Origin: a virus
Virus record (IMG/VR): IMGVR_UViG_3300046557_000859
Span: 1-34,494 of that record
DNA: 34,494 nt
Direction: 5' to 3' (one strand)
Shown: positions 3,191 to 34,494 of the stretch, piece by piece
Position numbering within the stretch: position 1 is the first letter of the stretch
Layout of the letters: every line of letters begins with the position of its first letter
Notes under the pieces: model-generated
Told to the model about the DNA's origin: nothing
Seen by the model: the letters and a program-made list of their open reading frames with translations, nothing else
Database searches by the model: none
Program-made: the position numbers and the translations under genes

Positions 3191-3892
3191 TCAGTCGCCG
3201 CGCAAGGTCACTGGATAGACGCCCCTGACGTCTTTGAGCGCGAAGGTGATGGTCCGTTCCTCAGGGAACAGCTCGCGCACGAACAGGGTCGATCCGTCGG
3301 ACTTCTCGTAGATCTTCACGTGGGCGTCGCCGTTGTTGAGCTCGACGACGCAGCCCCCGCCGCGGCGGGGCGGGCGTTCGCGGTCGAACAGCACGATCTC
3401 GCCGCTCTCGGCCCAAGGCGACATGCTGTCGCCGGCGACCTGCAGGGCGTCGGTGGCTCGGCCGAGGATCTGGCCAAGGTCGATCCGGCGCAGCGGCTCG
3501 GCGACGTCGTAGATTTCTGGGCCTCGGGCGCCAGCTCTGGCGCGGCCGAACACGTCGAACACGAAGGTTGACCGGCGGTCCTCGATCCCGCGTGGCCGCT
3601 CCGGCGCGCCCAGAACGCGGGCCTTGGCGACGTCCAGGTCATATTCCGATGCGCCCAGAATGCGCAGCACGTCGGCAATGCGGTCGGCCGTGAAGCCTCG
3701 CTCGCCCTTCTCGTACAGGCTCCAGGTCTGGGTTTTCACGCCCAGCGCCTCGGCGACGTCCTTCTGCAGCTTCTTGCGATCTTCGCGGATCATCCGGAGC
3801 GCTTCGCCCAGGAGACGCTGTTCGGCCTTGTCGGGGGAGCTGGTCAACGGCATGCGGCGATAGGGCGCGCCGTAGCCGTTGACCTCAAGCAT
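3191..3892 (-). CDS. CI/LexA-type phage repressor, HTH plus S24 peptidase-like domain
   Basis: The 233-residue protein has an N-terminal XRE helix-turn-helix (about 25-80, with KDVAEALGVKTQTWSLYEKGERG) and a C-terminal S24 LexA/UmuD-like domain. A candidate cleavage dipeptide is A120-G121; the serine nucleophile is probably S156 in AGDSMSP and the lysine K193 in HVKIYE. These features fit a repressor that self-cleaves with RecA after DNA damage to induce the prophage. ATG 3892 is used here, but a TTG at 3898 is better spaced from the AGGAG and could be the true start. The gene diverges from the cro-like gene, and an operator-like site lies between them. Confidence 0.88.
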   Translation of the reverse strand: MLEVNGYGAPYRRMPLTSSPDKAEQRLLGEALRMIREDRKKLQKDVAEALGVKTQTWSLYEKGERGFTADRIADVLRILGASEYDLDVAKARVLGAPERPRGIEDRRSTFVFDVFGRARAGARGPEIYDVAEPLRRIDLGQILGRATDALQVAGDSMSPWAESGEIVLFDRERPPRRGGGCVVELNNGDAHVKIYEKSDGSTLFVRELFPEERTITFALKDVRGVYPVTLRGD

Positions 3893-3924
3893 CCCCAACT
3901 GTTGCTCCTTCCGCAAACTTCTCC

Positions 3925-3939
3925 GTTGCACCAAACAAC
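3925..3939. promoter_or_regulatory. operator-like site GTTG-N7-CAAC between repressor and cro-like genes
   Basis: GTTGCACCAAACAAC has the same arms and 7-bp spacing as the site at 2738-2752. It lies in the AT-richer divergent intergenic region, inside a wider CCGTTG...CAACGG inverted repeat (3923-3948). It is a plausible binding site of the CI- or Cro-like protein. Confidence 0.5.
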
Positions 3940-3970
3940 AAATCAACGGCGAATTCAACAGCGACGCAGA

Positions 3971-4258
3971 ATGGGGGCGTCGCGGATGACCGAGCCTGTG
4001 GCCGAGATCGGCCGAAACAAGTTTGACGAATGGTGCTGGCGGCGGGGTCTGACCCTGGAGCCGGTCGCCGAGGCGATCGGCTGCTCGATCGAAACCGTTC
4101 GTAAGATCCGCCTTCCGTTCAGCGATGATAATCGGCGCGTGCCGGGCAAGGAACTCGCCGAACGGATCGTGCGGTTCACGGCCGGGGCCGTGACGCCCGC
4201 AGACTTCTACCCGTCGCACCTCCTACGCGGTGCTGGCGAAGACCGGGCCGACGCCTGA
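3971..4258 (+). CDS. Cro-like helix-turn-helix protein (95 aa)
   Basis: The frame encodes a small DNA-binding protein with an HTH pattern (LEPVAEAIGCSIETVRKIRLPFSDDNRRVPGKELAERIVRFTAGAVTPADFYP). The ending is typical of Cro/CI-like and YdaS-type phage regulators. Two starts are possible: ATG 3971 and ATG 3986; the second has a G-rich sequence 5' of it. It is divergent from the repressor gene, as Cro is, so it likely drives the switch to the rightward early operon. Longer upstream starts would run through the operator region and are unlikely. Confidence 0.72.
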   Translation: MGASRMTEPVAEIGRNKFDEWCWRRGLTLEPVAEAIGCSIETVRKIRLPFSDDNRRVPGKELAERIVRFTAGAVTPADFYPSHLLRGAGEDRADA

Positions 4259-18475: not shown

Positions 18476-18792
18476 AGATCGGGCCGCCGTCTGAGTTCTG
18501 GCGGCAGACCCCGCGGCTGCTGAAGGCGGCGCTCGACGCGGCGCTGAAGCGGGAAGACCGCCGGCGGCGCGAGCGCATCGTCCAGGCCTACCAGGCGGCC
18601 AACTTCCAGGGCCTGGCGGTCGAGAAGCTGCAGGCCATGCTCGACGGCAAGCCGGCCCCGGCCGAGCGGCGTCAGACCGCCCAGGAAATGTTCGACGCCA
18701 TGAGCCAATGGCGCGCGGTGCAAAACGCAATCGTCGCCCGCGACAAGGCCGCGGCTCGTTCGCCGGCCCCCCCGAAAACCCCGAACGCATAG
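18388..18792 (+). CDS. tail assembly chaperone, second frame (rcc01693-like), probably made by -1 frameshift
   Basis: In the -1 frame relative to the first chaperone, the frame opens just after a TGA at 18385-18387 and runs to TAG 18792. From 18436 it encodes WDWEWLFGLWCELEIG and then PSEFWRQTPRLLKAALDAAL, a pattern known from TAC proteins of GTA-like phages. The frame has no ATG, GTG or TTG before this core, so an independent start is not possible with usual codons. The start coordinate is the opening of the frame, not a translation start. I found no canonical slippery heptamer; weak candidates are at 18388-18394 and 18412-18418. Confidence 0.7.
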   Translation, partial: RGGGLGRSGPSAAGRGWDWEWLFGLWCELEIGPPSEFWRQTPRLLKAALDAALKREDRRRRERIVQAYQAANFQGLAVEKLQAMLDGKPAPAERRQTAQEMFDAMSQWRAVQNAIVARDKAAARSPAPPKTPNA

Positions 18793-18803
18793 GAGGATCG
18801 ACC

Positions 18804-21800
18804 ATGGCTGACAGCAAGATCGGCTCTCTGAGTGTCGTCCTGGGTCTCGACAGCGCTCAGTTCGAGACGGGCCTGAAGAGGTCGGCCGCCAACGCCAACG
18901 CCGGCGCCCTGAACATCGGCAAGGGGATCAAGGCCGGGCTGAAGGACGTAGAGGCCAACTTCCGCGGTGCGGCCGGGCAGGCGGGGACCTTCGGCGCGGC
19001 GCTGACGGGCATGGGCCTGATCGGCGTCGGCGTCGGCGCGGCCCTGGTCGGAACCCTCGCCCAGGTCCGCTCGGCGCTCGCCTTCGGCGATGAGATCGGC
19101 GACACCGCCACCAAGCTCGCGGTCACGACTGACGCCCTGCAGGAGTATCGCTACGCCGTTCATTCGCTCGGCGGCGAGTACACCGATGCGGACGCGGCGC
19201 TGCAGAGCTTCGCTGTCTCTTTCGGGGCGGCGCATGCGCAGCTCACCAAGAAAGCGGTCAAGCCGTTCGAGGCGCTCGGCCTGGACGCCAAGTCGTTCGC
19301 CACGACGGAAGACGCCCTGCAGGCGGTGATCGCCAAGATCGCCGCGCTGAAGTCCAGCGCTGAACAGGCCGCCATCGCCGACAAGCTCGGCCTAACCGCC
19401 ATGCTGCCGGCGATCCGCGCCGGGGTCGACGAGATGGATCGGCTTCGCGCCAAGGCGCACGAGGTCGGTTACGTCATGGACGCCGATCTGATCGCCAAGG
19501 CCGGCGAAGCGAACGACAAGTTCGAGGATCTGCAGCAGATCGTCGGGGTCCAGCTGCACAGCGCCTTCGTCGATCTCGCGCCGGTGCTGCTGAGCCTGAC
19601 CGGCCTCGTCGCCGACATGGCGAAGGGCCTGCGCGGCGTCATCGATCAGCTGTCGATCGTCGAGAACAAGTCGGCGGCTGGGCTCGACGCTCGCGCTCAG
19701 ACCGTTTCCAAAGAGCTGCTGATCCTCAAGAAGGCGCAGCTCAACGGGTCGGGCGTCTCTCAGCTCGCGATCGACAACAAGGTCGCCGAGCTGCAGGCGA
19801 TCGAAAATCAGCGCCAGCAACACAAGGCCGCCGCGGCCGCCAGCGCCGGCGTAGCCGCGCCGTCGGGAACCTCGCTCATTCCGCCGCACAGCAGCAGCGG
19901 CGCGAACAAGGCCGCCCAGGTCGCCGAGGCCAGCGCCGCGGCGATCGAGAGCGCGACCAAGGCCGAACTCGACGCCCGCATGTCGCTCACGGGCGACATC
20001 GAGCGCCTGGCGGCGCTCAAGGCCGGCCAGGTCCGGCAGGAAACCGCTGCCGCCAACCAGCGGCTGCAGGACGACGCCAACGCCGGCAAGATCACCCAGG
20101 CGGCCGCTGCCAAGGCGATCGCGCTCAACAACCGCACGTCGGTTGAAAAGCAGATCCTGATCGCGCGCGAGAAGGAGGCTGACCTCGCGGCCAAGGCGGC
20201 GTCGCAGGAAGCGGAGCTTGGTGGCTATCGCCAACAGATCGCCAGCGTACAGGCCCAGCTCGCCGGCACGGCGCAGGCCCGTGCGGCGATCGAGCTGCAG
20301 GCGCTGGCCGACGCTCAGAAGATCGACCGCGACCAGCTCAAGGCGAGCCTCGATAAGCAGTTCGCGGCCGACGACATCACCGAGGCCTATCGTCAGGAAG
20401 TGATCGCCGCCCAGGCCTCGGCGCAATCCGCCGAGACGGAGAAGGCGCAACACGACGCCCGCGTCGCGATCGCCAAGGAGGCAGTTGAACGCGAGCAGAA
20501 TGCGCTCGAGCTGCAGATCGACCTTGCCCAGGCGCAGGGCGCGCTCGCCGATACGGTGATCGCCCGGCGTCACGCGGAGCTACGCCTGCTCGCCCTGCAG
20601 AAGGCGGCGGAAAAGAAGCAGCTCGAAGCCCAGGCGAAGGACGAGAGCCTGAGCGTCGATGAACGCAAAAAGGCGCAGGACCGACTCGACCAGCTCGACG
20701 TGCTTTATGGCGCCCAGGCCAAGGTCATCGAGCGCCAGAACTCGCTCGCCGACGCGTTCCGCGAAGCCTCGCACAATGTTCAGGATATGGCCGACGCCTT
20801 CAAAAGCGGCGACTGGCTGTCGCTGTTCGATGACCTCAAGCAGGCGATCAATGGCCTCAAGGCGGCGTTCAGCTCCGGCGGAACTGCGGCCGATAAGGTT
20901 TCGTCGGTTGCTGGCCTGGTCGACGGTGTCGGTAAGGCGATCGGCGGCAAGGCCGGGAAGGCGCTGAGCTGGGCGGCGCAGGGTGCGCAGATCGGTATGA
21001 CGCTCGGCGGCCCGTGGGGTGCGGTCGCTGGCGCAATCATCGGTGGGCTCGGATCGCTGCTCGGTGGCAAGCCCTCGAACAATGGCGCGATCGCCACCAT
21101 TAATGGCAAGACGGTCGCGCTCTCGGGGAACAAGCGCACCAGCGAGACCAGCAGCGCGGCCGAAAGCACGGGCAACGCGATCGTTCAGGGCCAGGAGCTG
21201 CTGAAGTCGCTCGGCCTCTCGCTCGGCACGACGATCAAGTCGATCGACATTGGCACGCGCGACCTGACGCACATCTTCCTGTCGAGCGGCGCGGAGCTGC
21301 GCAGCGCGGTCGGCGATAGCAAGGCCGCGGCCGAGACGGCGCTGCGCGCGGTGCTCGACGGCGCGACCTTTGTCTCGGACGCGCAAAAGCAGCTCGTGAC
21401 CTCGATGGAGGCGGCCGGCGCCGGCTTCGACGACATCTCGGCCGCCCTGCAGAACTACCAAGCGGCCCAGGACATCCCGAAACAGATCGGCGATGCGATC
21501 CTGCAGATCGTCGATCCGAAGGCCTATGACCAATCGCAGCTCAAGGCGGCGCAGGAAGCTCGGCGCGACAGCGTCAAGGCCGCCCTGGACGCCGGCTATA
21601 TCACCGCCGATCTCTTCGCCTCCGTCAGCGCCCAGCTCTCCAAGTTGGAGGGGCTGGAGCTTGACCAGGTGCTCGCCAAATATTCCGACGCGATCGACAG
21701 CGCGGCGGAGCGTCAACAGGCTGCGGCCGACGCGGTCTCCAAGGCGAGGGATGATCTCAAGGCCGCCTACGAGGGCCAGGTCTCGACGCTGAAGGATACG

Positions 21801-22526
21801 ATCAGCGAGTATTCCTCGGTCGCCAACAGCCTGCGCAAGTTCGACGAGAGCCTGCGCGCGGGCGGTTCGCCGCAAACGTCGCTGGCCGCGGCTCAGGCCG
21901 CCTTCCGCGCCGTCGCCGGCAAGACCGACGCCGCCAGCCTCGCCAAGCTGCAGGACGCCGGGCAGGCCCTGCTCGACGCCGGCAAGGCGGGGGCGCGGGA
22001 TCAGACCGAGCTTGCCCGGATCCAGGGGCAGGTCCGCGCGGCGGTGAAGGCCGGCGCCGCGGCGGCGGACGCCCAGGTGAACCTGGCGCAGTCGCAGCTC
22101 GACGCCTTGAACGCCCAGGTCTCCGGCCTGATCGAGGTCAACGCCAGCGTGCTCAGCGTCGCATCGGCGATCGGCGCGCTGCAGGCCGCCCTCGTCAGTC
22201 AGCAGCTGCTCAACGGTGGCGGTTCGGTCGCGAACGACAACGCCATCGGCGTGCCGCACTTCGCCACCGGCGGCGGCTTCCAGGTCGGCGGCCTGGGCGG
22301 CACGGACAGCAGGCTCGCGCAGCTCGCGGTTTCGCCCAGTGAATACGTCAACGTCAGCCACGGGGACAGCATGGGCGCCATGGCGAAGGGGATGGGCGTG
22401 CTGGGCCGTGCGGTCGCCGCCCAGGCCCGGCAGCTCGAAGACGTCGCCCGCTTCACGCGCAGTCAGCACGACCTTCTGATGCAGGTTACGCGCGGCGGAT
22501 CGGCTCTCGTCACGGTGGCCGCCTGA
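18804..22526 (+). CDS. tape measure protein (1240 aa)
   Basis: ATG 18804 follows AGGAGG with good spacing. The 1240 residues are mainly Ala/Gln/Lys-rich coiled coil (for example the long helical region at about 390-660). They include two hydrophobic parts: AALTGMGLIGVGVGAALVGT near residues 67-86 and GAQIGMTLGGPWGAVAGAIIGGLGSLLGG near 727-755. It sets tail length and may pass DNA across the inner membrane. It is the longest gene of the tail block and follows the two chaperone frames as usual. It ends with a soluble C-terminal part (ATGGGFQVGGLGGTDSRLAQLAVSPSEYVNV), common in phage tape measure proteins. It overlaps the next gene by one base. Confidence 0.95.
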   Translation: MADSKIGSLSVVLGLDSAQFETGLKRSAANANAGALNIGKGIKAGLKDVEANFRGAAGQAGTFGAALTGMGLIGVGVGAALVGTLAQVRSALAFGDEIGDTATKLAVTTDALQEYRYAVHSLGGEYTDADAALQSFAVSFGAAHAQLTKKAVKPFEALGLDAKSFATTEDALQAVIAKIAALKSSAEQAAIADKLGLTAMLPAIRAGVDEMDRLRAKAHEVGYVMDADLIAKAGEANDKFEDLQQIVGVQLHSAFVDLAPVLLSLTGLVADMAKGLRGVIDQLSIVENKSAAGLDARAQTVSKELLILKKAQLNGSGVSQLAIDNKVAELQAIENQRQQHKAAAAASAGVAAPSGTSLIPPHSSSGANKAAQVAEASAAAIESATKAELDARMSLTGDIERLAALKAGQVRQETAAANQRLQDDANAGKITQAAAAKAIALNNRTSVEKQILIAREKEADLAAKAASQEAELGGYRQQIASVQAQLAGTAQARAAIELQALADAQKIDRDQLKASLDKQFAADDITEAYRQEVIAAQASAQSAETEKAQHDARVAIAKEAVEREQNALELQIDLAQAQGALADTVIARRHAELRLLALQKAAEKKQLEAQAKDESLSVDERKKAQDRLDQLDVLYGAQAKVIERQNSLADAFREASHNVQDMADAFKSGDWLSLFDDLKQAINGLKAAFSSGGTAADKVSSVAGLVDGVGKAIGGKAGKALSWAAQGAQIGMTLGGPWGAVAGAIIGGLGSLLGGKPSNNGAIATINGKTVALSGNKRTSETSSAAESTGNAIVQGQELLKSLGLSLGTTIKSIDIGTRDLTHIFLSSGAELRSAVGDSKAAAETALRAVLDGATFVSDAQKQLVTSMEAAGAGFDDISAALQNYQAAQDIPKQIGDAILQIVDPKAYDQSQLKAAQEARRDSVKAALDAGYITADLFASVSAQLSKLEGLELDQVLAKYSDAIDSAAERQQAAADAVSKARDDLKAAYEGQVSTLKDTISEYSSVANSLRKFDESLRAGGSPQTSLAAAQAAFRAVAGKTDAASLAKLQDAGQALLDAGKAGARDQTELARIQGQVRAAVKAGAAAADAQVNLAQSQLDALNAQVSGLIEVNASVLSVASAIGALQAALVSQQLLNGGGSVANDNAIGVPHFATGGGFQVGGLGGTDSRLAQLAVSPSEYVNVSHGDSMGAMAKGMGVLGRAVAAQARQLEDVARFTRSQHDLLMQVTRGGSALVTVAA

Positions 22527-25894: not shown

Positions 25895-26230
25895 ATGGCC
25901 TATTCCCGAAACACATCGGGCACGACAGCCGACGGCATGCTCGACGCCCTGACGGCGATGACCGCCCAGGCGACGCCCAAGGGCTATGTTCAGATCACCA
26001 ACCTGACGGCGGCCGTCGGCCTGGGGACCATCCCCACGGGCGCGCGCTATGCGGTGATCCAGCCAGAAGGCCAGCAGGTGCGGTGGCGCGACGACGGGAG
26101 CAGCCCCGCCGCGGGTGTCGGGATGCAAATCCCGCTCGGCAAGGAACTGCTCTACGACGGCGACCTGACGGCGCTGAAGTTCATCCAAGATGCCGCGACG
26201 GCCAAGCTCAACGTGGTCTTCTATGCCTAG
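25895..26230 (+). CDS. small virion-associated protein (111 aa)
   Basis: ATG 25895 follows AGGAGG. The 111 residues have a Thr/Gly-rich N-terminus and a beta-sandwich-like body (TPKGYVQITNLTAAVGLGTIPTGARYAVIQPEGQQVRWRDDG and DLTALKFIQDAATAKLNVVFYA). Proteins of this shape are often found just before tail-fibre genes in GC-rich siphophages, where they remain unassigned. Its stop overlaps the start of the large tail protein by eight bases. Confidence 0.55.
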   Translation: MAYSRNTSGTTADGMLDALTAMTAQATPKGYVQITNLTAAVGLGTIPTGARYAVIQPEGQQVRWRDDGSSPAAGVGMQIPLGKELLYDGDLTALKFIQDAATAKLNVVFYA

Positions 26231-29200
26231 GACCATTGACCTGGGACAGGGCCTCACCCTGCGGCGCAGCATGCCGGCGGTCGGCGGAACGGCGGTCAGC
26301 ACAGCGCCGGCGCCGGACACGACGCCGAACGCGTTCGACTTCGTCAACGTGTCGAACGCGGCGCTGAACACCGACTTTACCTACAGCTTCACCCTGGCCG
26401 GCGTCGATGCGCCCTGCACGGTGACGGCGACCGGCGCGGCTCAGGTCAGCATCAACGGCGGGGCCTACAGTCAATCGCCGGGCGCCGCCGTTTTGGGCGA
26501 CACCATCGCGGTAAAGCTGCACTCGTCGTCGAGCTTCGGCACGCCGGTTTCGGGGACCTTCACGGTCGGCACGGTCACCGACAGCATTACGGTGACGACG
26601 CTGGCGTCGGACACTACGCCGAACGCCTTCGACTTCGTCGACGTCACCGGCGCGGCGCTGGACAGCGACTTTACCTACAGCTTCACGCTTGCCGGCGTGA
26701 ACGCCCCGTGCGCGGTCACGGCGACCGGCGCGGTGCAGGTCAACATCAATGGCGGCGCCTACAGCCAGGCGCCCGGCAACGCCGTGGTCGGCAACACGAT
26801 CGGCGTGAAGATCCACTCGTCGGCCAGCAATTCGACGCCGATCAGCGGTTCGTTCACCGTGGGAACGGTCACCGACAGCGTGACGGTGACGACGGTGGCT
26901 GCGCCGGTCGTTCTCAACACGCTGAAGATCAGCGCCAACAGCTTCACCACGACCACTGCGTCGGGAGCCACGATCGGCAACATCACCGGCAAAACCGTCG
27001 GATCGACGCTGACGATCAGTCCGAACGACGGCCGTGTGACCTTCAACGGTGCGCAAGATCAGCTGATCGTGGGCCTTTCGGCATCGTCGCCCAGTCTGAC
27101 GTTCTATACCGTTACGGAGACTGCCGCCGACTTGGTCACATCGAAATCGACCGACTTCGGCCTGTCGTGCGCTGACGGTGCGGTGACCTATTCCCTGCGC
27201 GAGACGTGGGCGAACGGCGTCCCCGACTGGTGGACCCCCACCAACACCGGCGCGAAGTGGATGAACGCCGAGGCGACCAATGAGGACCAGACGGCCCTCT
27301 ATGGCTACCCGGCCGTCGGTCGGTGTCAGCCGTGGGAGTGGCAGCTCTGGTTGGATCCGACCTTCCACGGCGTGAACCCCTACTCGGTCGACAACGGCGA
27401 CCTGATCATCACCTGCATGGATTTGACCGGGAAGACCGGCGCCAAGTTCAACAGCCCTTGGAACCCGACTGACGGCTACACGGGCAACCTCGCTCCGATG
27501 GTCGCCTACAACACGCCGTATCAATTCGGCACGGGCGTGGTCAGCAGCGAACATATCTGCACGCAGGTTGAAGGAACCTGGGAAGCGAACATCGCCTTCC
27601 CGGCCATCAAGGATGGGGCCGGCAACTTCCTGCCCGGCGTGAAGTGCGCATTTTGGCTCTACGACCAGGCCACCGCGAAAGAAGTCGATATCGTCGAGTG
27701 GCTATCGGACCATCCCTATGAGCTGCTGATGAACCAGCTGATCGGGGGAAGTCAGGTCGGCAGCAATGTGAGCGGCTCGACGACCGGCGCGGTGACGATG
27801 TCGGGCGGGTACGACCCGACGGCGATGAACAACTACAAGCTGGTCAAGACCTCCACCCAGCTCATTTGGTACGTCAACGGTGCCGAAAAGCGCCGCGTGA
27901 CGAACGCGCTCGGCAGCACGCCGCTGTATGTCTACAGCGACTTTTCGCTGAAGACGCACTGGGACGCTGGGGACGGCACGAAGGACCGCACACAACCGCC
28001 GCCCGAGGTCATCGGCAAGGAGATGCGGATCGGGGATATCCTCATCCGGCCGCTCATGGCGGACACGGTTCCCGACGCTTTTGCCTTCACCGACGTGACG
28101 AGCGCGGTGGCTGGATCGACGCAGACCTCCACAATCACGGTCTCGGGCATCGACGGCCCCTCAGCGATCTCGATCTCGGGTGGAGATTACAAGATCAACT
28201 CCGGGGCCTACACGACCACCTCGGGGACCGTGGTCAATGGCGACGCGGTGACTGTGCGTACCACGGCGTCGGCGGTCGGGGGAGCGGTGGTCGAGGCCAC
28301 CCTGGCCATCGGCGGCGTGTCCGACACCTTCAGCGTCACGACCTCGAGCGTGGGCTTTCGCCAACCCATCGGGGTTCGCACGGGCCTCAATTCGCGTGAA
28401 GACGCCCTGGGCTCCGGCTCTCGCAGCCTGATGACGTCTATGCAGCTTCACCCCGTCAAGGCGGCGACCGACTGGCAGTTGACGTGGCTCAACGGCCACA
28501 TCAACGGCGGCGGTGATTTCGTATGGACGGGCGTCGGAGACGCCACGGTCGAGGCCTCGATCTGGGACCGGAACGCCGGGATCTTCGAGCGCCTGACCTT
28601 TGGGGGTGCGAACCTCGGCGCCGTCACCGATGGCCTGTTCATCTCGACGGACAAGCACAACTTCAGCGCCATCACGCCGCCGACGATCGCGACCAATCCG
28701 GAGCTGCTGTGGAAGGACCAACCGCTCCTGGTGCGATATCGGTGGAGTTGGGACGGGGCGATCTTCCCGGCTCACATCCCGCTTGCAGGCACGCTCAACC
28801 CGACCGGAGCCAGCGAAGGTGCGCTGGTTTCCCCCACTGCCCAGGGCACGACCAACATGGTCATGAGCGGAACGCTGACGACCACTGACAACGTTGCCGG
28901 CTGGCAGCCGATGCCGGTCGTCACCCTGACCGGCACGGTGAGTACGCCGCACGTCGCGGTCATGCACATCGGCGACAGCATCGGCAACGATGGCGCCAAC
29001 GAAACGGCCGGCAAACATGTCGGCTGGTCCGCCAAGGGCGCGGTCCTGGCGCGCGTACCGGTAGTCCCTTGGAACTCCAGCGGCGGATCGCTCAACGGCT
29101 TGGTCGCCGCGACGGCGAATAACCGCAACCGCCTGATCCAGAAGCTCGATCAAGCGCAGCTGGAAGGCTACACCCACGTCCTCGACAGCCTCGGAACGAA

Positions 29201-29903
29201 CGACTGGCCAAACAATACGACGGCCGCCCAGATGCGGACCTACTGCCAGACGCTGCAGGGCCTCGTCGAAGCGCGTGGGATGAAATACGCGCGGACGACG
29301 CTTCCGCCGCGGACCAACGCCGGCAACACGGCACCGGCGAACACCGCGGCCGGCACCGAGCGCCAGGCGTTCCATGCCGCGCTGCGCGCTGATCATGCGG
29401 CGGGGACCGGCCCGGGGGCGATCCTATTCGATCTGGCGCAAGATCTTGAGGCCGGACACCTGGCCGCCCCGACCGGGCTTTGGGCCAACGACCTCTACGA
29501 CATCTTGTCGGCCGCCTTCGTCATCACCAGCGGCGGGTCTGGATATATCTCCAGCGAACTTTTGGAACTGCCCTACGACATCATCGGCCAGGTCGTGCAA
29601 ACGGGCGGGGTTGTAACTGCATTGACCTCCCTGCGCGGCTTCATGTTCTCGCCGCACGACGTGCCGGGTCCGCTGACCGGGCTGACGCCGATTTCCAGTG
29701 TTGGATCCGGCCTCAATCCCGGTCTGGGAACCGGCCTGGTGCTCAACATCTCTCTGCCAACCGGAAACTCGTCGTGCAATGACACCGACGGGGTCCACAT
29801 GCTCGGCAACGGCCACGGCATGGTCGCCCGGCGCTTCGCCGCGTTCTTGCGGACGCTGACGCCTCCGACCGGGAAGAACGGTAGCGGGCTCTGGACTTGG
29901 TAG
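26223..29903 (+). CDS. large tail protein with GH16-type glycanase and C-terminal SGNH esterase (1226 aa)
   Basis: ATG 26223 overlaps the previous stop. Two Ig-like beta repeats of about 98 residues lie at 32-129 and 130-226, and a more diverged one at 614-705. Between them, about 325-612 resembles GH16 beta-glucanase/lectin folds, with the catalytic signature EVDIVE at 487-492 (E487 nucleophile, E492 acid/base by family knowledge). The C-terminal part (about 908-1225) has SGNH/GDSL blocks: GDSIG with S919, GTND at 991-994 and DGVH at 1189-1192, giving an Asp-His pair. SGNH enzymes often remove acetyl groups from polysaccharide. The protein probably degrades and de-acetylates a surface glycan during adsorption. 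Substrate is unknown. Confidence 0.82.
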   Translation: MPRTIDLGQGLTLRRSMPAVGGTAVSTAPAPDTTPNAFDFVNVSNAALNTDFTYSFTLAGVDAPCTVTATGAAQVSINGGAYSQSPGAAVLGDTIAVKLHSSSSFGTPVSGTFTVGTVTDSITVTTLASDTTPNAFDFVDVTGAALDSDFTYSFTLAGVNAPCAVTATGAVQVNINGGAYSQAPGNAVVGNTIGVKIHSSASNSTPISGSFTVGTVTDSVTVTTVAAPVVLNTLKISANSFTTTTASGATIGNITGKTVGSTLTISPNDGRVTFNGAQDQLIVGLSASSPSLTFYTVTETAADLVTSKSTDFGLSCADGAVTYSLRETWANGVPDWWTPTNTGAKWMNAEATNEDQTALYGYPAVGRCQPWEWQLWLDPTFHGVNPYSVDNGDLIITCMDLTGKTGAKFNSPWNPTDGYTGNLAPMVAYNTPYQFGTGVVSSEHICTQVEGTWEANIAFPAIKDGAGNFLPGVKCAFWLYDQATAKEVDIVEWLSDHPYELLMNQLIGGSQVGSNVSGSTTGAVTMSGGYDPTAMNNYKLVKTSTQLIWYVNGAEKRRVTNALGSTPLYVYSDFSLKTHWDAGDGTKDRTQPPPEVIGKEMRIGDILIRPLMADTVPDAFAFTDVTSAVAGSTQTSTITVSGIDGPSAISISGGDYKINSGAYTTTSGTVVNGDAVTVRTTASAVGGAVVEATLAIGGVSDTFSVTTSSVGFRQPIGVRTGLNSREDALGSGSRSLMTSMQLHPVKAATDWQLTWLNGHINGGGDFVWTGVGDATVEASIWDRNAGIFERLTFGGANLGAVTDGLFISTDKHNFSAITPPTIATNPELLWKDQPLLVRYRWSWDGAIFPAHIPLAGTLNPTGASEGALVSPTAQGTTNMVMSGTLTTTDNVAGWQPMPVVTLTGTVSTPHVAVMHIGDSIGNDGANETAGKHVGWSAKGAVLARVPVVPWNSSGGSLNGLVAATANNRNRLIQKLDQAQLEGYTHVLDSLGTNDWPNNTTAAQMRTYCQTLQGLVEARGMKYARTTLPPRTNAGNTAPANTAAGTERQAFHAALRADHAAGTGPGAILFDLAQDLEAGHLAAPTGLWANDLYDILSAAFVITSGGSGYISSELLELPYDIIGQVVQTGGVVTALTSLRGFMFSPHDVPGPLTGLTPISSVGSGLNPGLGTGLVLNISLPTGNSSCNDTDGVHMLGNGHGMVARRFAAFLRTLTPPTGKNGSGLWTW

Positions 29904-29916
29904 CCCTCGCGCCGCG

Positions 29917-30096
29917 TTAGATCGAAAACCTCTGCGATGCACACGGCTCGCAGAGGTTTTCGGCGTCGTCGCGGCGGGCCTTGAAGCAGGCGTCACACAG
30001 TAGCATGCGGCTGGTCCCGCGATCTCGAAAGTGCTCGTCCATCAGCGCCTCGAAGAAGGACTCGACCATCCGCCAGCCAGCGACGGGCAATCTCAT
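29917..30096 (-). CDS. small zinc-finger-like protein (59 aa)
   Basis: The ATG at 30096 overlaps the acyltransferase stop by one base (TGATG). The protein begins MRLPVAGWRMVESFFEAL and has two Cys pairs, CDAC and CEPC, separated by 14 residues (LLCDACFKARRDDAENLCEPCASQRFSI), so it probably binds one zinc. The final codons form the stem of a terminator. No family is recognised. Being downstream of and coupled to the acyltransferase, it may be part of the same lysogenic module. Confidence 0.55.
   Translation of the reverse strand: MRLPVAGWRMVESFFEALMDEHFRDRGTSRMLLCDACFKARRDDAENLCEPCASQRFSI
29923..29962. terminator. bidirectional terminator between convergent genes
   Basis: CGAAAACCTCTGCGA (29923-29937) pairs perfectly with TCGCAGAGGTTTTCG (29948-29962) around 10 bases. 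On both strands the 3' arm contains GGTTTT. It ends the rightward late operon and also encodes the C-terminal codons of the minus-strand zinc protein. Confidence 0.75.
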
Positions 30097-31169
30097 CACG
30101 CCGCGGCTTCGCTCTGCGCTGGGATCTGGTTTGGGCGCGCTCGATCGTATTGGAAGCGGTCTTTCAGGCGGAGGATGGGCTGCTCGAAGAAGCGCCAGGA
30201 TAGCGTAGCGACCACCACAGTGGCGGCGAAGCAGGCGGCGATCCGCGGCCACTGCGCCAGGCGGTCGCCCGTCGCCGCGTCAACACCCCAGGCGACGAAC
30301 GGATGGTAGAGGTAGACGCCATACGAGATCCGTCCGAGATACTGCAGCGGCGACCAGTTGAGCCATTGCAGCCCTCGCGGGTGAGGGATTGAGACGATCG
30401 CCCCTAAGATCGCGAAGCTCGCCACGCCGACCCCGAGGTTGAAGCCCGCGCGAGCGAACGGGCCGCCGAGCATGAGGCCGCCGGCCAGGATCAGGACGCC
30501 GAGCGCGCCGGAGACGATGATTTCCGCCGAGACAAGGGGGCGGCCGCGCTGCGTCGCCAAGGCCAGCAGGGCCCCGATCCCAAGAAGATCCAGGTTGGCG
30601 GGAAGCAGCACGCCGCCAGCCGGAACCAGCAGCCTGAACGCCGGCCCCGTAACGATCACCGCCAGGATGAGCGGCAACATGGCCTTCCGCGGCGTGAGTA
30701 AAATGAGCGCGGGCCAGATCAGGTAGAATTGCTCTTCGACGGCGAGCGACCAGAAGTGGCCGCCAACTTTCGGAAGGCTGTGCCGGTAGGCCCAGAAGTT
30801 CGACAGATAGGCGAAATGGGCGCCAAGGCTGGGCGCAGTCATATAGCCGGCGAGCACCAGCCCTAGGACGATGAACAGGACGGCGTAATAGGGCGGGAAG
30901 ATCCGTAGGGTCCGTCGCACGTAAAAGGTCTTCATCTCGTCGCCGAAGCCCGCGCCGCCGCTTTCGATCCGAGCGCGCGCCCGCAGTAGGATGCCGGTGA
31001 TCAGGAAGCCGCTGATCACGAAGAACAGCCGAACGCCGCCGTCGCCAAGGTGCAGCCGACCGACCCACGCGGGACCCCAGTGCAAGAGCATCACGCCAGA
31101 CACGGCGAGGGCGCGCAGGCCGTCGATCTCGGTCCACTTTGACTCTGGTTTCGCGCTCATCGAGTTCAT
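30096..31169 (-). CDS. acyltransferase 3 family membrane protein, O-acetylase type (357 aa)
   Basis: The start is ATG 31169 or 31160. The protein has about ten hydrophobic segments and the family motifs: WTEIDGLRALAVSGVMLLHWG with the likely catalytic His, LFFVISGFLITGILL, the RRTLRIFPPYYAV box, and WSLAVEEQFYLIWP. Members such as OafA and phage serotype-conversion enzymes acetylate O-antigen or capsule in the membrane. Phage copies change the host surface and block superinfection. It is transcribed against the late genes, as expected for a lysogenic conversion gene. The C-terminus (FEQPILRLKDRF) closes the family fold. An SGNH esterase in the tail protein lies next door, a striking pairing. 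Confidence 0.87.
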   Translation of the reverse strand: MNSMSAKPESKWTEIDGLRALAVSGVMLLHWGPAWVGRLHLGDGGVRLFFVISGFLITGILLRARARIESGGAGFGDEMKTFYVRRTLRIFPPYYAVLFIVLGLVLAGYMTAPSLGAHFAYLSNFWAYRHSLPKVGGHFWSLAVEEQFYLIWPALILLTPRKAMLPLILAVIVTGPAFRLLVPAGGVLLPANLDLLGIGALLALATQRGRPLVSAEIIVSGALGVLILAGGLMLGGPFARAGFNLGVGVASFAILGAIVSIPHPRGLQWLNWSPLQYLGRISYGVYLYHPFVAWGVDAATGDRLAQWPRIAACFAATVVVATLSWRFFEQPILRLKDRFQYDRARPNQIPAQSEAAA

Positions 31170-31385: not shown

Positions 31386-31634
31386 ATGGACCGCCAGACG
31401 GCGCAGATCGCGCGGCTGGCGGACGAGCTCAAGCTCGCTCGCGAAACGGTTTCGCCGGCGGTCGACGCGATCACCAATCTCGACGCAGCGCAAAAGAAGC
31501 TTTGCGGCTTCGTGGTCAAGCATCGGGTCAAGATCCTGCTGTCGATCCCCTTGGTGCTGACCGGGGTTGGGGCGGTGTCGCCGGCGGCGGCGGACTGGCT
31601 GCGGGCAGCGCTCAGGATCTGGGGGGTGCATTGA
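31386..31634 (+). CDS. small membrane protein, holin-like candidate (82 aa)
   Basis: ATG 31386 is preceded by AGGTGG with good spacing; starts at 31290 and GTG 31356 are possible but the codons there are less GC-rich. The protein has an N-terminal coiled coil (MDRQTAQIARLADELKLARETVSPAV), a basic stretch (KKLCGFVVKHRVK) and a C-terminal hydrophobic helix (ILLSIPLVLTGVGAVSPAAADWL). It lies directly before the endolysin and overlaps it by four bases. That is the usual place of a holin, but a one-helix topology with N-terminal coiled coil is also seen in spanin-like or moron proteins. Confidence 0.6.
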   Translation: MDRQTAQIARLADELKLARETVSPAVDAITNLDAAQKKLCGFVVKHRVKILLSIPLVLTGVGAVSPAAADWLRAALRIWGVH

Positions 31635-32296
31635 CCTCCGCCGTCCTCTCCGCCGCCCAGGTGGCGGCCGTCGCGCCGAATTGCGACGCGCGCATCTGGG
31701 CCGGCGTGCTGAACTCCGCGGCGGGCGACTTCGGGATCGACACGCCGAAGCGGGCGGCTGCCTGGCTGGCGCAGATCGCCCATGAAAGCGCCGGCTTCAC
31801 GCGGCTGAGCGAGAGCCTGAACTACAGCGCCGAGGGGCTGCTGGCGACCTTCTCGCGGGCGCGGATCAGCGCCACCGACTGCCGCCGCCTCGGTCGCATC
31901 GGCCCCGCCGCGGCGCCGACCCAGAAGGCCAATCAGCCGGCGATCGCCAACCTGGTCTACGGCGGCCAGTGGGGCGCGCTGAACCTCGGCAACCGCAAGC
32001 CGGGCGACGGCTGGCTCTATCGGGGGCGCGGCGTGCTGCAGACGACCGGCCGGGCCAACTACGTCGCCGCCGGCAAGCGCCTGGGCCTCGACCTGGTGGC
32101 CGATCCTGGCCAGCTGGCGACGCCGGCGATCGGCGCGCGGGCGGCGGCGGCCTTCTGGGTCGACCACGGGCTGAACCAGCTGGCCGACGCCGGCAACCAG
32201 CTCGAAATCACCGAACGCATCAACGGCGGCCAGAACGGGGCGGATGACCGCGCCCGCCTCCTGGCGCTCGCCACCAGCGCCATCGCGCGCGCCTAG
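31631..32296 (+). CDS. endolysin, GH19 chitinase-like (221 aa)
   Basis: TTG 31631 follows GGGGGG and overlaps the previous stop. GH19 features are clear: AHESAGFTRLSESLNYSAEGL with likely catalytic E52 and E61, then YRGRGVLQTTGRANY (130-144) for the substrate-cleft loop, and INGGQNGADDRARL near the C-terminus. GH19 phage endolysins cut peptidoglycan between N-acetylglucosamine and N-acetylmuramic acid. No signal peptide is visible, so release likely needs a holin. It is followed by a lipoprotein. Confidence 0.92.
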   Translation: MTSAVLSAAQVAAVAPNCDARIWAGVLNSAAGDFGIDTPKRAAAWLAQIAHESAGFTRLSESLNYSAEGLLATFSRARISATDCRRLGRIGPAAAPTQKANQPAIANLVYGGQWGALNLGNRKPGDGWLYRGRGVLQTTGRANYVAAGKRLGLDLVADPGQLATPAIGARAAAAFWVDHGLNQLADAGNQLEITERINGGQNGADDRARLLALATSAIARA

Positions 32297-34053: not shown

Positions 34054-34494
34054 CTAGGCTTGCCCCGACGTTTTCTCGTTCTGCAGGCGCCCGACCCATT
34101 TCGAGTGCTCGGTCGAGATCAGGCTCTCCACTCGCTCGATTAGCAGTCTCTTCGCCGTGGCGTCGTCGACGTCATATGGCCCGACGCGACCGAGATAGGT
34201 GTATTTCTCATGCCGAAGCGCCTCGCAGGTGGAGCGATAGGTGATCCAGTTGTGCTGCCACTGATTGAGTTGCTGCATGGCCTCAATCACGAGCAGAAGA
34301 CCCGCCATGGCGGCCGTCAGCCAGGGCTCGTGCAGATAGGCGGCTAGAGGTACGAGGGCGGTCACCACCACCTGCAAGATCTTTGTCTGCTTGAACAATC
34401 GCTGAGCAGAGCCGGACTTGCTGTCGTACCAACCGATCTGCTGTTCGAGGCGCAAATAGCCGCTGTCTGGCTCGTCGGACACCTTCGCCTTCAT
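34054..34494 (-). CDS. two-TM DUF4231/SLATT-like membrane protein (146 aa)
   Basis: The start codon is at the very edge of the window (34494), so a longer N-terminus cannot be excluded. The pattern is that of DUF4231/SLATT: a conserved N-terminal helix (YLRLEQQIGWYDSKSGSAQRLFKQTKI), two adjacent TM segments (VVVTALVPLAAYL and LTAAMAGLLLVIEAM), then a cytoplasmic helix (QWQHNWITYRSTCEALRHEKYTYLGRVGPY). SLATT domains are known as membrane effectors of nucleotide-signalling defence systems, such as those with SMODS or SLOG proteins. No such sensor is seen here; it may lie beyond the edge, or the protein may act alone. Confidence 0.7.
   Translation of the reverse strand: MKAKVSDEPDSGYLRLEQQIGWYDSKSGSAQRLFKQTKILQVVVTALVPLAAYLHEPWLTAAMAGLLLVIEAMQQLNQWQHNWITYRSTCEALRHEKYTYLGRVGPYDVDDATAKRLLIERVESLISTEHSKWVGRLQNEKTSGQA

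Follow-up and report, generated by a model that had tools for sequence, protein, structure and literature searches.

A viral tail protein with a GH16 glycanase domain and a predicted SGNH esterase domain

In the window analysed here, a stretch of 34,494 nucleotides covering positions 1 to 34,494 of the IMG/VR virus record IMGVR_UViG_3300046557_000859, one gene encodes a 1,226 aa protein that displays a GH16 domain in its central region and a predicted SGNH/GDSL esterase domain at the C terminus, with Ig-like repeats and beta domains ahead of and between them. We favour, with a probability of roughly 0.55, the reading that this protein is the receptor-binding fibre of a siphovirus-like temperate phage infecting an alphaproteobacterium, on which the Ig-like repeats would present an SGNH deacylase together with a GH16 glycanase. 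The architecture is uncommon, is uncharacterised in the literature searched and is recurrent in viral sequence data.

Domains and catalytic motifs of the 1,226 aa protein

The protein is encoded by a single stop-free frame (26223-29903, + strand). Its start shares bases with the stop codon of the gene before it (ATGCCTAG), an arrangement as in coupled genes, and a second in-frame ATG lies upstream at 26190. EVDIVE lies at residues 487-492, GDSIG at 917-921 (S919), GTND at 991-994 (N993) and DGVH at 1189-1192, in agreement with the first-pass annotation. The features of the gene are as follows.

26223..29903, +, putative two-enzyme tail fibre protein, 1,226 aa (open frame, motifs located; alternative start at 26190)
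26313..26903, +, two Ig-like repeats, residues 31-227 (DTTPNAFDFVNV...; PHROG short tail fibre phrog_4924, 4.6e-5)
26904..27176, +, third fibre beta domain, residues 228-318 (41-43% identity to protein repeats encoded in Caulobacteraceae genomes)
27177..28058, +, GH16 catalytic domain, residues 319-612 (PF00722 above cut-off; rhizobial GH16 similarity across the whole domain; structure model)
27681..27698, +, GH16 active-site strand EVDIVE (by family rule, E487 nucleophile, D489, and E492 acid/base)
28056..28352, +, Ig-like repeat joining the enzyme halves, residues 612-710 (42-49% identity to Caulobacteraceae protein repeats)
28353..28934, +, predicted beta-sandwich domain preceding the SGNH domain, residues 711-904 (the N-terminal beta domain of SGNH proteins from Rhizobium phages aligns here)
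28935..29900, +, predicted SGNH/GDSL esterase domain, residues 905-1226 (phrog_8480; PF00657 without the insert; relatives P106B_14, phiM6 gp9 and TM16)
28971..28985, +, SGNH block I, GDSIG (G917, D918, S919 and I920 invariant in the phage-relative alignment)
29097..29099, +, candidate SGNH block II glycine, G959 (invariant in the same alignment)
29193..29204, +, SGNH block III, GTND (N993; invariant in the same alignment)
29499..29765, +, 89-residue insert between blocks III and V, residues 1093-1181 (boundaries drawn by eye)
29787..29798, +, SGNH block V, DGVH (D1189, H1192; assigned by position, the PF00657 profile ending here)

Shuffling residues 318-615 200,000 times produced a GH16-like ExDxxE motif in 152 cases, and the same number of shuffles of residues 905-1226 gave SGNH blocks I, III and V in order 23 times. 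Chance origin of either motif set is unlikely, though possible, and the domain assignments depend on profile matches and relatives, by which both are very likely genuine.

The GH16 assignment of residues 319-612 is firm. The Pfam profile PF00722 matches this segment at 1.1e-6 with 28.7 bits (curated cut-off 22), and E487, D489 and E492 are invariant across 52 aligned GH16 domains, so that EVDIVE fits the GH16 active site as had been proposed from the motif. The domain is nevertheless very divergent. It retains 23 of 49 otherwise conserved positions, and it keeps all three catalytic acids and the FWL motif; at the other 26 it differs, and among the residues lost are a conserved H at 506 and a conserved W at 542. 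That all three acids are intact when only 23 of the 49 positions are kept suggests selection for catalysis, and from these residues the domain is predicted to act as a retaining endo-hydrolase on a beta-linked glycan. Structure prediction had been put forward as a check on the motif, and in the AlphaFold model of residues 228-615 EVDIVE lies inside a well-modelled GH16 fold, with a pLDDT of 85-96 in the core around the active site. The model has a beta-jelly-roll (concanavalin A-like) fold and superposes on GH16 beta-glucanases with VIA Z scores of ~22 (3o5s: Z 22.2, rmsd 2.2 over 201 residues), a fold that is not independent of the sequence alignment because GH16 relatives guided the model.

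In pairwise alignment, GH16 proteins with RTX-like repeats from Sinorhizobium, Indioceanicola and Rhizobium proved similar over ~245 residues. An alignment scan of bacterial genomes added at least 62 GH16 relatives, the top scores among the matches listed belonging to GH16 proteins of Caulobacter, Sphingomonadales and Phenylobacterium, while a tblastn search of plasmids for the GH16 half returned weak candidates only. As a separate observation, a GH16 protein on another viral contig (L017, 1654-3939) has two repeated N-terminal LamG-like domains within a block of structural genes, and its GH16 domain aligns with the one described here at 5.9e-10.

For the C-terminal half, GDSIG, GTND and DGVH had been read as SGNH blocks I, III and V, and this reading gains support from several sides. 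The PHROG family phrog_8480, annotated as lysophospholipase L1-like esterase, matches the unmodified sequence at 1e-9. Proteins of Rhizobium and Sinorhizobium phages (P106B_14, phiM6 gp9, TM16) align across blocks I to III, and S919, G959 and N993 are invariant in the 13 aligned sequences, which include these phage relatives. Pfam found no GDSL match in the unmodified 1,226 aa sequence; once the insert at 1093-1181 is removed, PF00657 spans blocks I to V nearly end to end, at 1.1e-4 and 22.8 bits, which falls just short of the cut-off of 23.6. The Rhizobium-phage relatives also carry an insert at about the same place between blocks III and V. SGNH identity of residues 905-1226 is therefore well supported at the level of sequence, and the intact catalytic residues would be consistent with esterase activity.

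The structure model of the SGNH domain is of low confidence (mean pLDDT 41, core 65-86); it includes a predicted helix at 1196-1211, after DGVH. With this poor model Foldseek returned neither an SGNH fold nor any match at E<=0.001, and KaiC-like Foldseek matches, with poor TM-scores, were discarded as meaningless. VIA placed carbohydrate, PVA and GDSL esterases on top (7toj 7.3, 9kr1 7.1, 8gr2 6.3), the best Z of 7.3, to CspAcXE, being under the reliable range.

Among the remaining domains, the Ig-like repeats at 31-227 are ~30% identical to repeats of Synechococcus phage SfCH1b_30, and similar repeats are also present in Caulobacteraceae proteins. The fibre beta domain at 228-318 has low pLDDT in the structure model, and modelling gave no confident structure for the beta-sandwich domain at 711-904. 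Repeats of the kinds at 31-227 and 612-710 occur in non-phage proteins too, for example a Thiothrix plasmid 'cellulase family glycosylhydrolase' and RHS-like Caulobacteraceae proteins. One protein of a Caulobacteraceae genome (L087) has a fibre domain of the 228-318 type with an apparently SGNH-like stretch after it, and is possibly a prophage fibre.

Occurrence of the pairing in viral proteins

The first-pass annotation knew of no characterised phage with this pairing. Our literature search of open-licence papers likewise found no phage depolymerase combining glycanase and deacylase activities; the architecture is not a one-off, since Pfam detects GH16 and GDSL together in other viral proteins, and uniqueness is thereby ruled out. 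A GH16 scan of viral contigs yielded 69 loci, and 3 of the 60 viral GH16 proteins then scanned with Pfam carry GDSL/SGNH domains (L152, L150 and L141/L142, all from uncultivated phages in IMG/VR). In L152 (596 aa) the GH16 domain is followed by the GDSL domain, and in L150 (at least 1,016 aa) and L141/L142 (2,035 aa) the GDSL domain precedes an intact GH16 domain. The neighbours of L152, L150 and L141 resemble phage structural genes by eye. We also observed in L150 and L141/L142 an extra first GH16-like copy that lacks ExDxxE, ahead of the GDSL domain, and in L141 a beta-helix plus an apparently glycosidase-like stretch.

In the GH16 tree, L152, L150 and L141 form one clade with 100/100 support, and the 1,226 aa protein lies outside it on a branch of ~4.2, its exact placement being unsure owing to long branches. 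A single BLAST match connects the viral fusion proteins with the 1,226 aa protein, at an E value of 0.36. Since the three viral fusions group apart from the 1,226 aa protein, two or more independent origins of the pairing are probable.

No close relative of the whole 1,226 aa protein was detected in the viral contigs or genomes searched, and a PDB sequence search returned nothing significant; among phages, sequence matches cover only the Ig repeats and the SGNH half. Two of the search methods bear on these results. The tblastn search was insensitive here, as it missed the GH16 domain of phiN3 gp132, yet a profile search found it. Motif patterns overlooked the three viral fusions that Pfam detected, and for that reason the motif-pattern search of cellular GH16 proteins gives no support for an absence of fusions there.

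Genomic context and proposed function

The tail module, in which the tape measure gene lies further upstream, ends with the gene of the 1,226 aa protein. The features of the window that bear on its context are these.

18708..22526, +, tape measure protein, upstream (phrog_8125, phrog_2276, phrog_2854; similar region in phages JY42 and DMCA)
3191..4219, -, CI/LexA-type repressor, HTH plus S24 peptidase (PF13560, PF00717)
30096..31160, -, OafA-type acyltransferase, 354 aa (PF01757, 3.8e-28; between tail and lysis genes)
31502..32296, +, probable endolysin (GH19) of the lysis module (PF00182, 3.5e-7)

Caulobacter phage DMCA and Synechococcus phage JY42 carry relatives of the upstream tail genes, and a neighbouring tail gene had no relatives among the viral contigs searched. 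Since a CI/S24 repressor is encoded, the lifestyle appears temperate. The host would be an alphaproteobacterium, probably one of soil or freshwater. Relatives of the acyltransferase are encoded by rhizobial plasmids and by O-antigen-modifying phages, and the enzyme may act in the lysogen on the same glycan that the virion fibre would deacylate. A small protein at 34054-34494 (-) gives DUF4231 and SLATT-type 2TM matches (PF14015, 1.9e-21), a family linked to defence modules.

In the mechanism that we propose, the Ig-like repeats would present both enzymes on the tail fibre. The C-terminal SGNH domain, through S919, G959, N993 and H1192, would strip acyl groups, probably O-acetyl, from host exopolysaccharide or capsule, and the GH16 domain would cleave the beta-linked backbone by a retaining mechanism in which E487 would be the nucleophile and E492 the acid/base. 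As acyl groups may either block or permit the glycanase, deacylation and cutting in one protein could let the virion bind and clear an acylated polymer. York and Walker are said to have found in 1998 that acetyl groups lower the cutting of succinoglycan. The acetyl and succinyl groups of succinoglycan alter its cleavage by the glycanases ExoK and ExsH (PMC1403797; PMC4916376), which makes it plausible that one fibre would combine deacetylation with backbone cleavage; a non-selective deacylase could conversely hinder cutting, because unsuccinylated succinoglycan resists ExoK and ExsH (PMC4916376). In agreement with the deacylation step, esterase activity is proven for SGNH tail proteins of other phages (PMC13123978). 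The separate recurrence of GH16 and SGNH in viral tail-like proteins argues that the two domains cooperate.

The main rival, which we consider unlikely, holds that the GH16 domain is a carbohydrate-binding module without useful catalysis, so that the fibre would bind by GH16 and deacetylate by SGNH. It draws on the 26 of 49 conserved GH16 positions that differ and on the existence of non-catalytic GH16 copies in phage fibres, such as the first copies in L150 and L141; against it, E487, D489, E492 and the FWL motif have all been retained despite heavy divergence elsewhere. It is likewise improbable, in our estimate, that both domains are active on separate targets, GH16 on secreted exopolysaccharide or an environmental beta-glucan and SGNH on LPS or another receptor. 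The halves are of different origin, with an Ig repeat plus a beta domain between them, and SGNH tail proteins such as G7C gp63.1 act on LPS but do not cut it (PMC13123978); a recurrent fusion of both activities fits a shared target better, though it is no proof. That either domain, or both, has decayed or has a structural role only, kept for binding in an ordinary modular fibre, seems very improbable: the SGNH model is weak and the enzyme functions are predicted ones, whereas both catalytic sets are complete and the 1,226 aa frame is intact. We favour the reading of a receptor-binding fibre that would carry glycanase and deacylase together.

A doubtful extension of this reading is an acyl-group switch, by which the fibre would deacetylate and cut the polysaccharide and the OafA-type acyltransferase encoded downstream would re-acylate it in the lysogen, shielding the cell against further phages. 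If this were true, GH16 plus SGNH would have evolved repeatedly, as an 'unlock and cut' module, in phages of exopolysaccharide-producing bacteria. To our knowledge, the known phage depolymerases act either by glycan cutting or by deacetylation. Both chemistries in a single fibre, in at least two unrelated forms, suggest that phages combine them against acylated exopolysaccharides, where acyl groups would control glycanase access. For work on acylated exopolysaccharides of bacteria, the 1,226 aa protein supplies candidate enzymes as well as a model that can be tested.

Comparison with known systems

The secreted rhizobial GH16 exopolysaccharide glycanases, of the ExsH/PlyA kind, resemble the 1,226 aa protein in full-length GH16 similarity, at 19-29% identity, and in the E-x-D-x-x-E site. 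They are secreted host proteins with RTX-type repeats, and the viral protein has fibre and SGNH domains instead. The viral protein may have a different substrate from ExsH, because its GH16 domain is so divergent and several conserved residues are lost. A GH16 enzyme is also encoded by a rhizobial phage, Sinorhizobium phage phiN3, as gp132 ('beta-glucanase', L112 4737-5954); unlike the present protein, gp132 has 405 aa and no SGNH domain, and its gene lies far from the tail genes. The SGNH proteins of Rhizobium and Sinorhizobium phages (P106B_14, phiM6 gp9 and RHph_TM16 EVB27_041) share the beta domain, an SGNH domain of the same family and the insert between blocks III and V. They differ in being ~540 aa proteins of predicted function that lack GH16, and their genes lie elsewhere (in phiM6, adjoining the portal gene), whereas that of the 1,226 aa protein lies in the tail module.

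The Klebsiella prophage receptor-binding proteins 164_08 and 174_38, coliphage G7C gp63.1 and Acinetobacter phage Aristophanes gp41 likewise carry an SGNH esterase in a receptor-binding protein, and deacetylation of surface glycans has been shown or proposed for them; the part of the source available reports no GH16 glycanase in these fibres, and their SGNH sequences differ from the one described here. L152, L150 and L141/L142 are phage-like tail proteins that do unite GH16 with GDSL/SGNH; they differ in belonging to another GH16 clade and in their varying domain order and copy number. The 1,226 aa protein represents a combination of known domains, and the mechanism itself would not be new.
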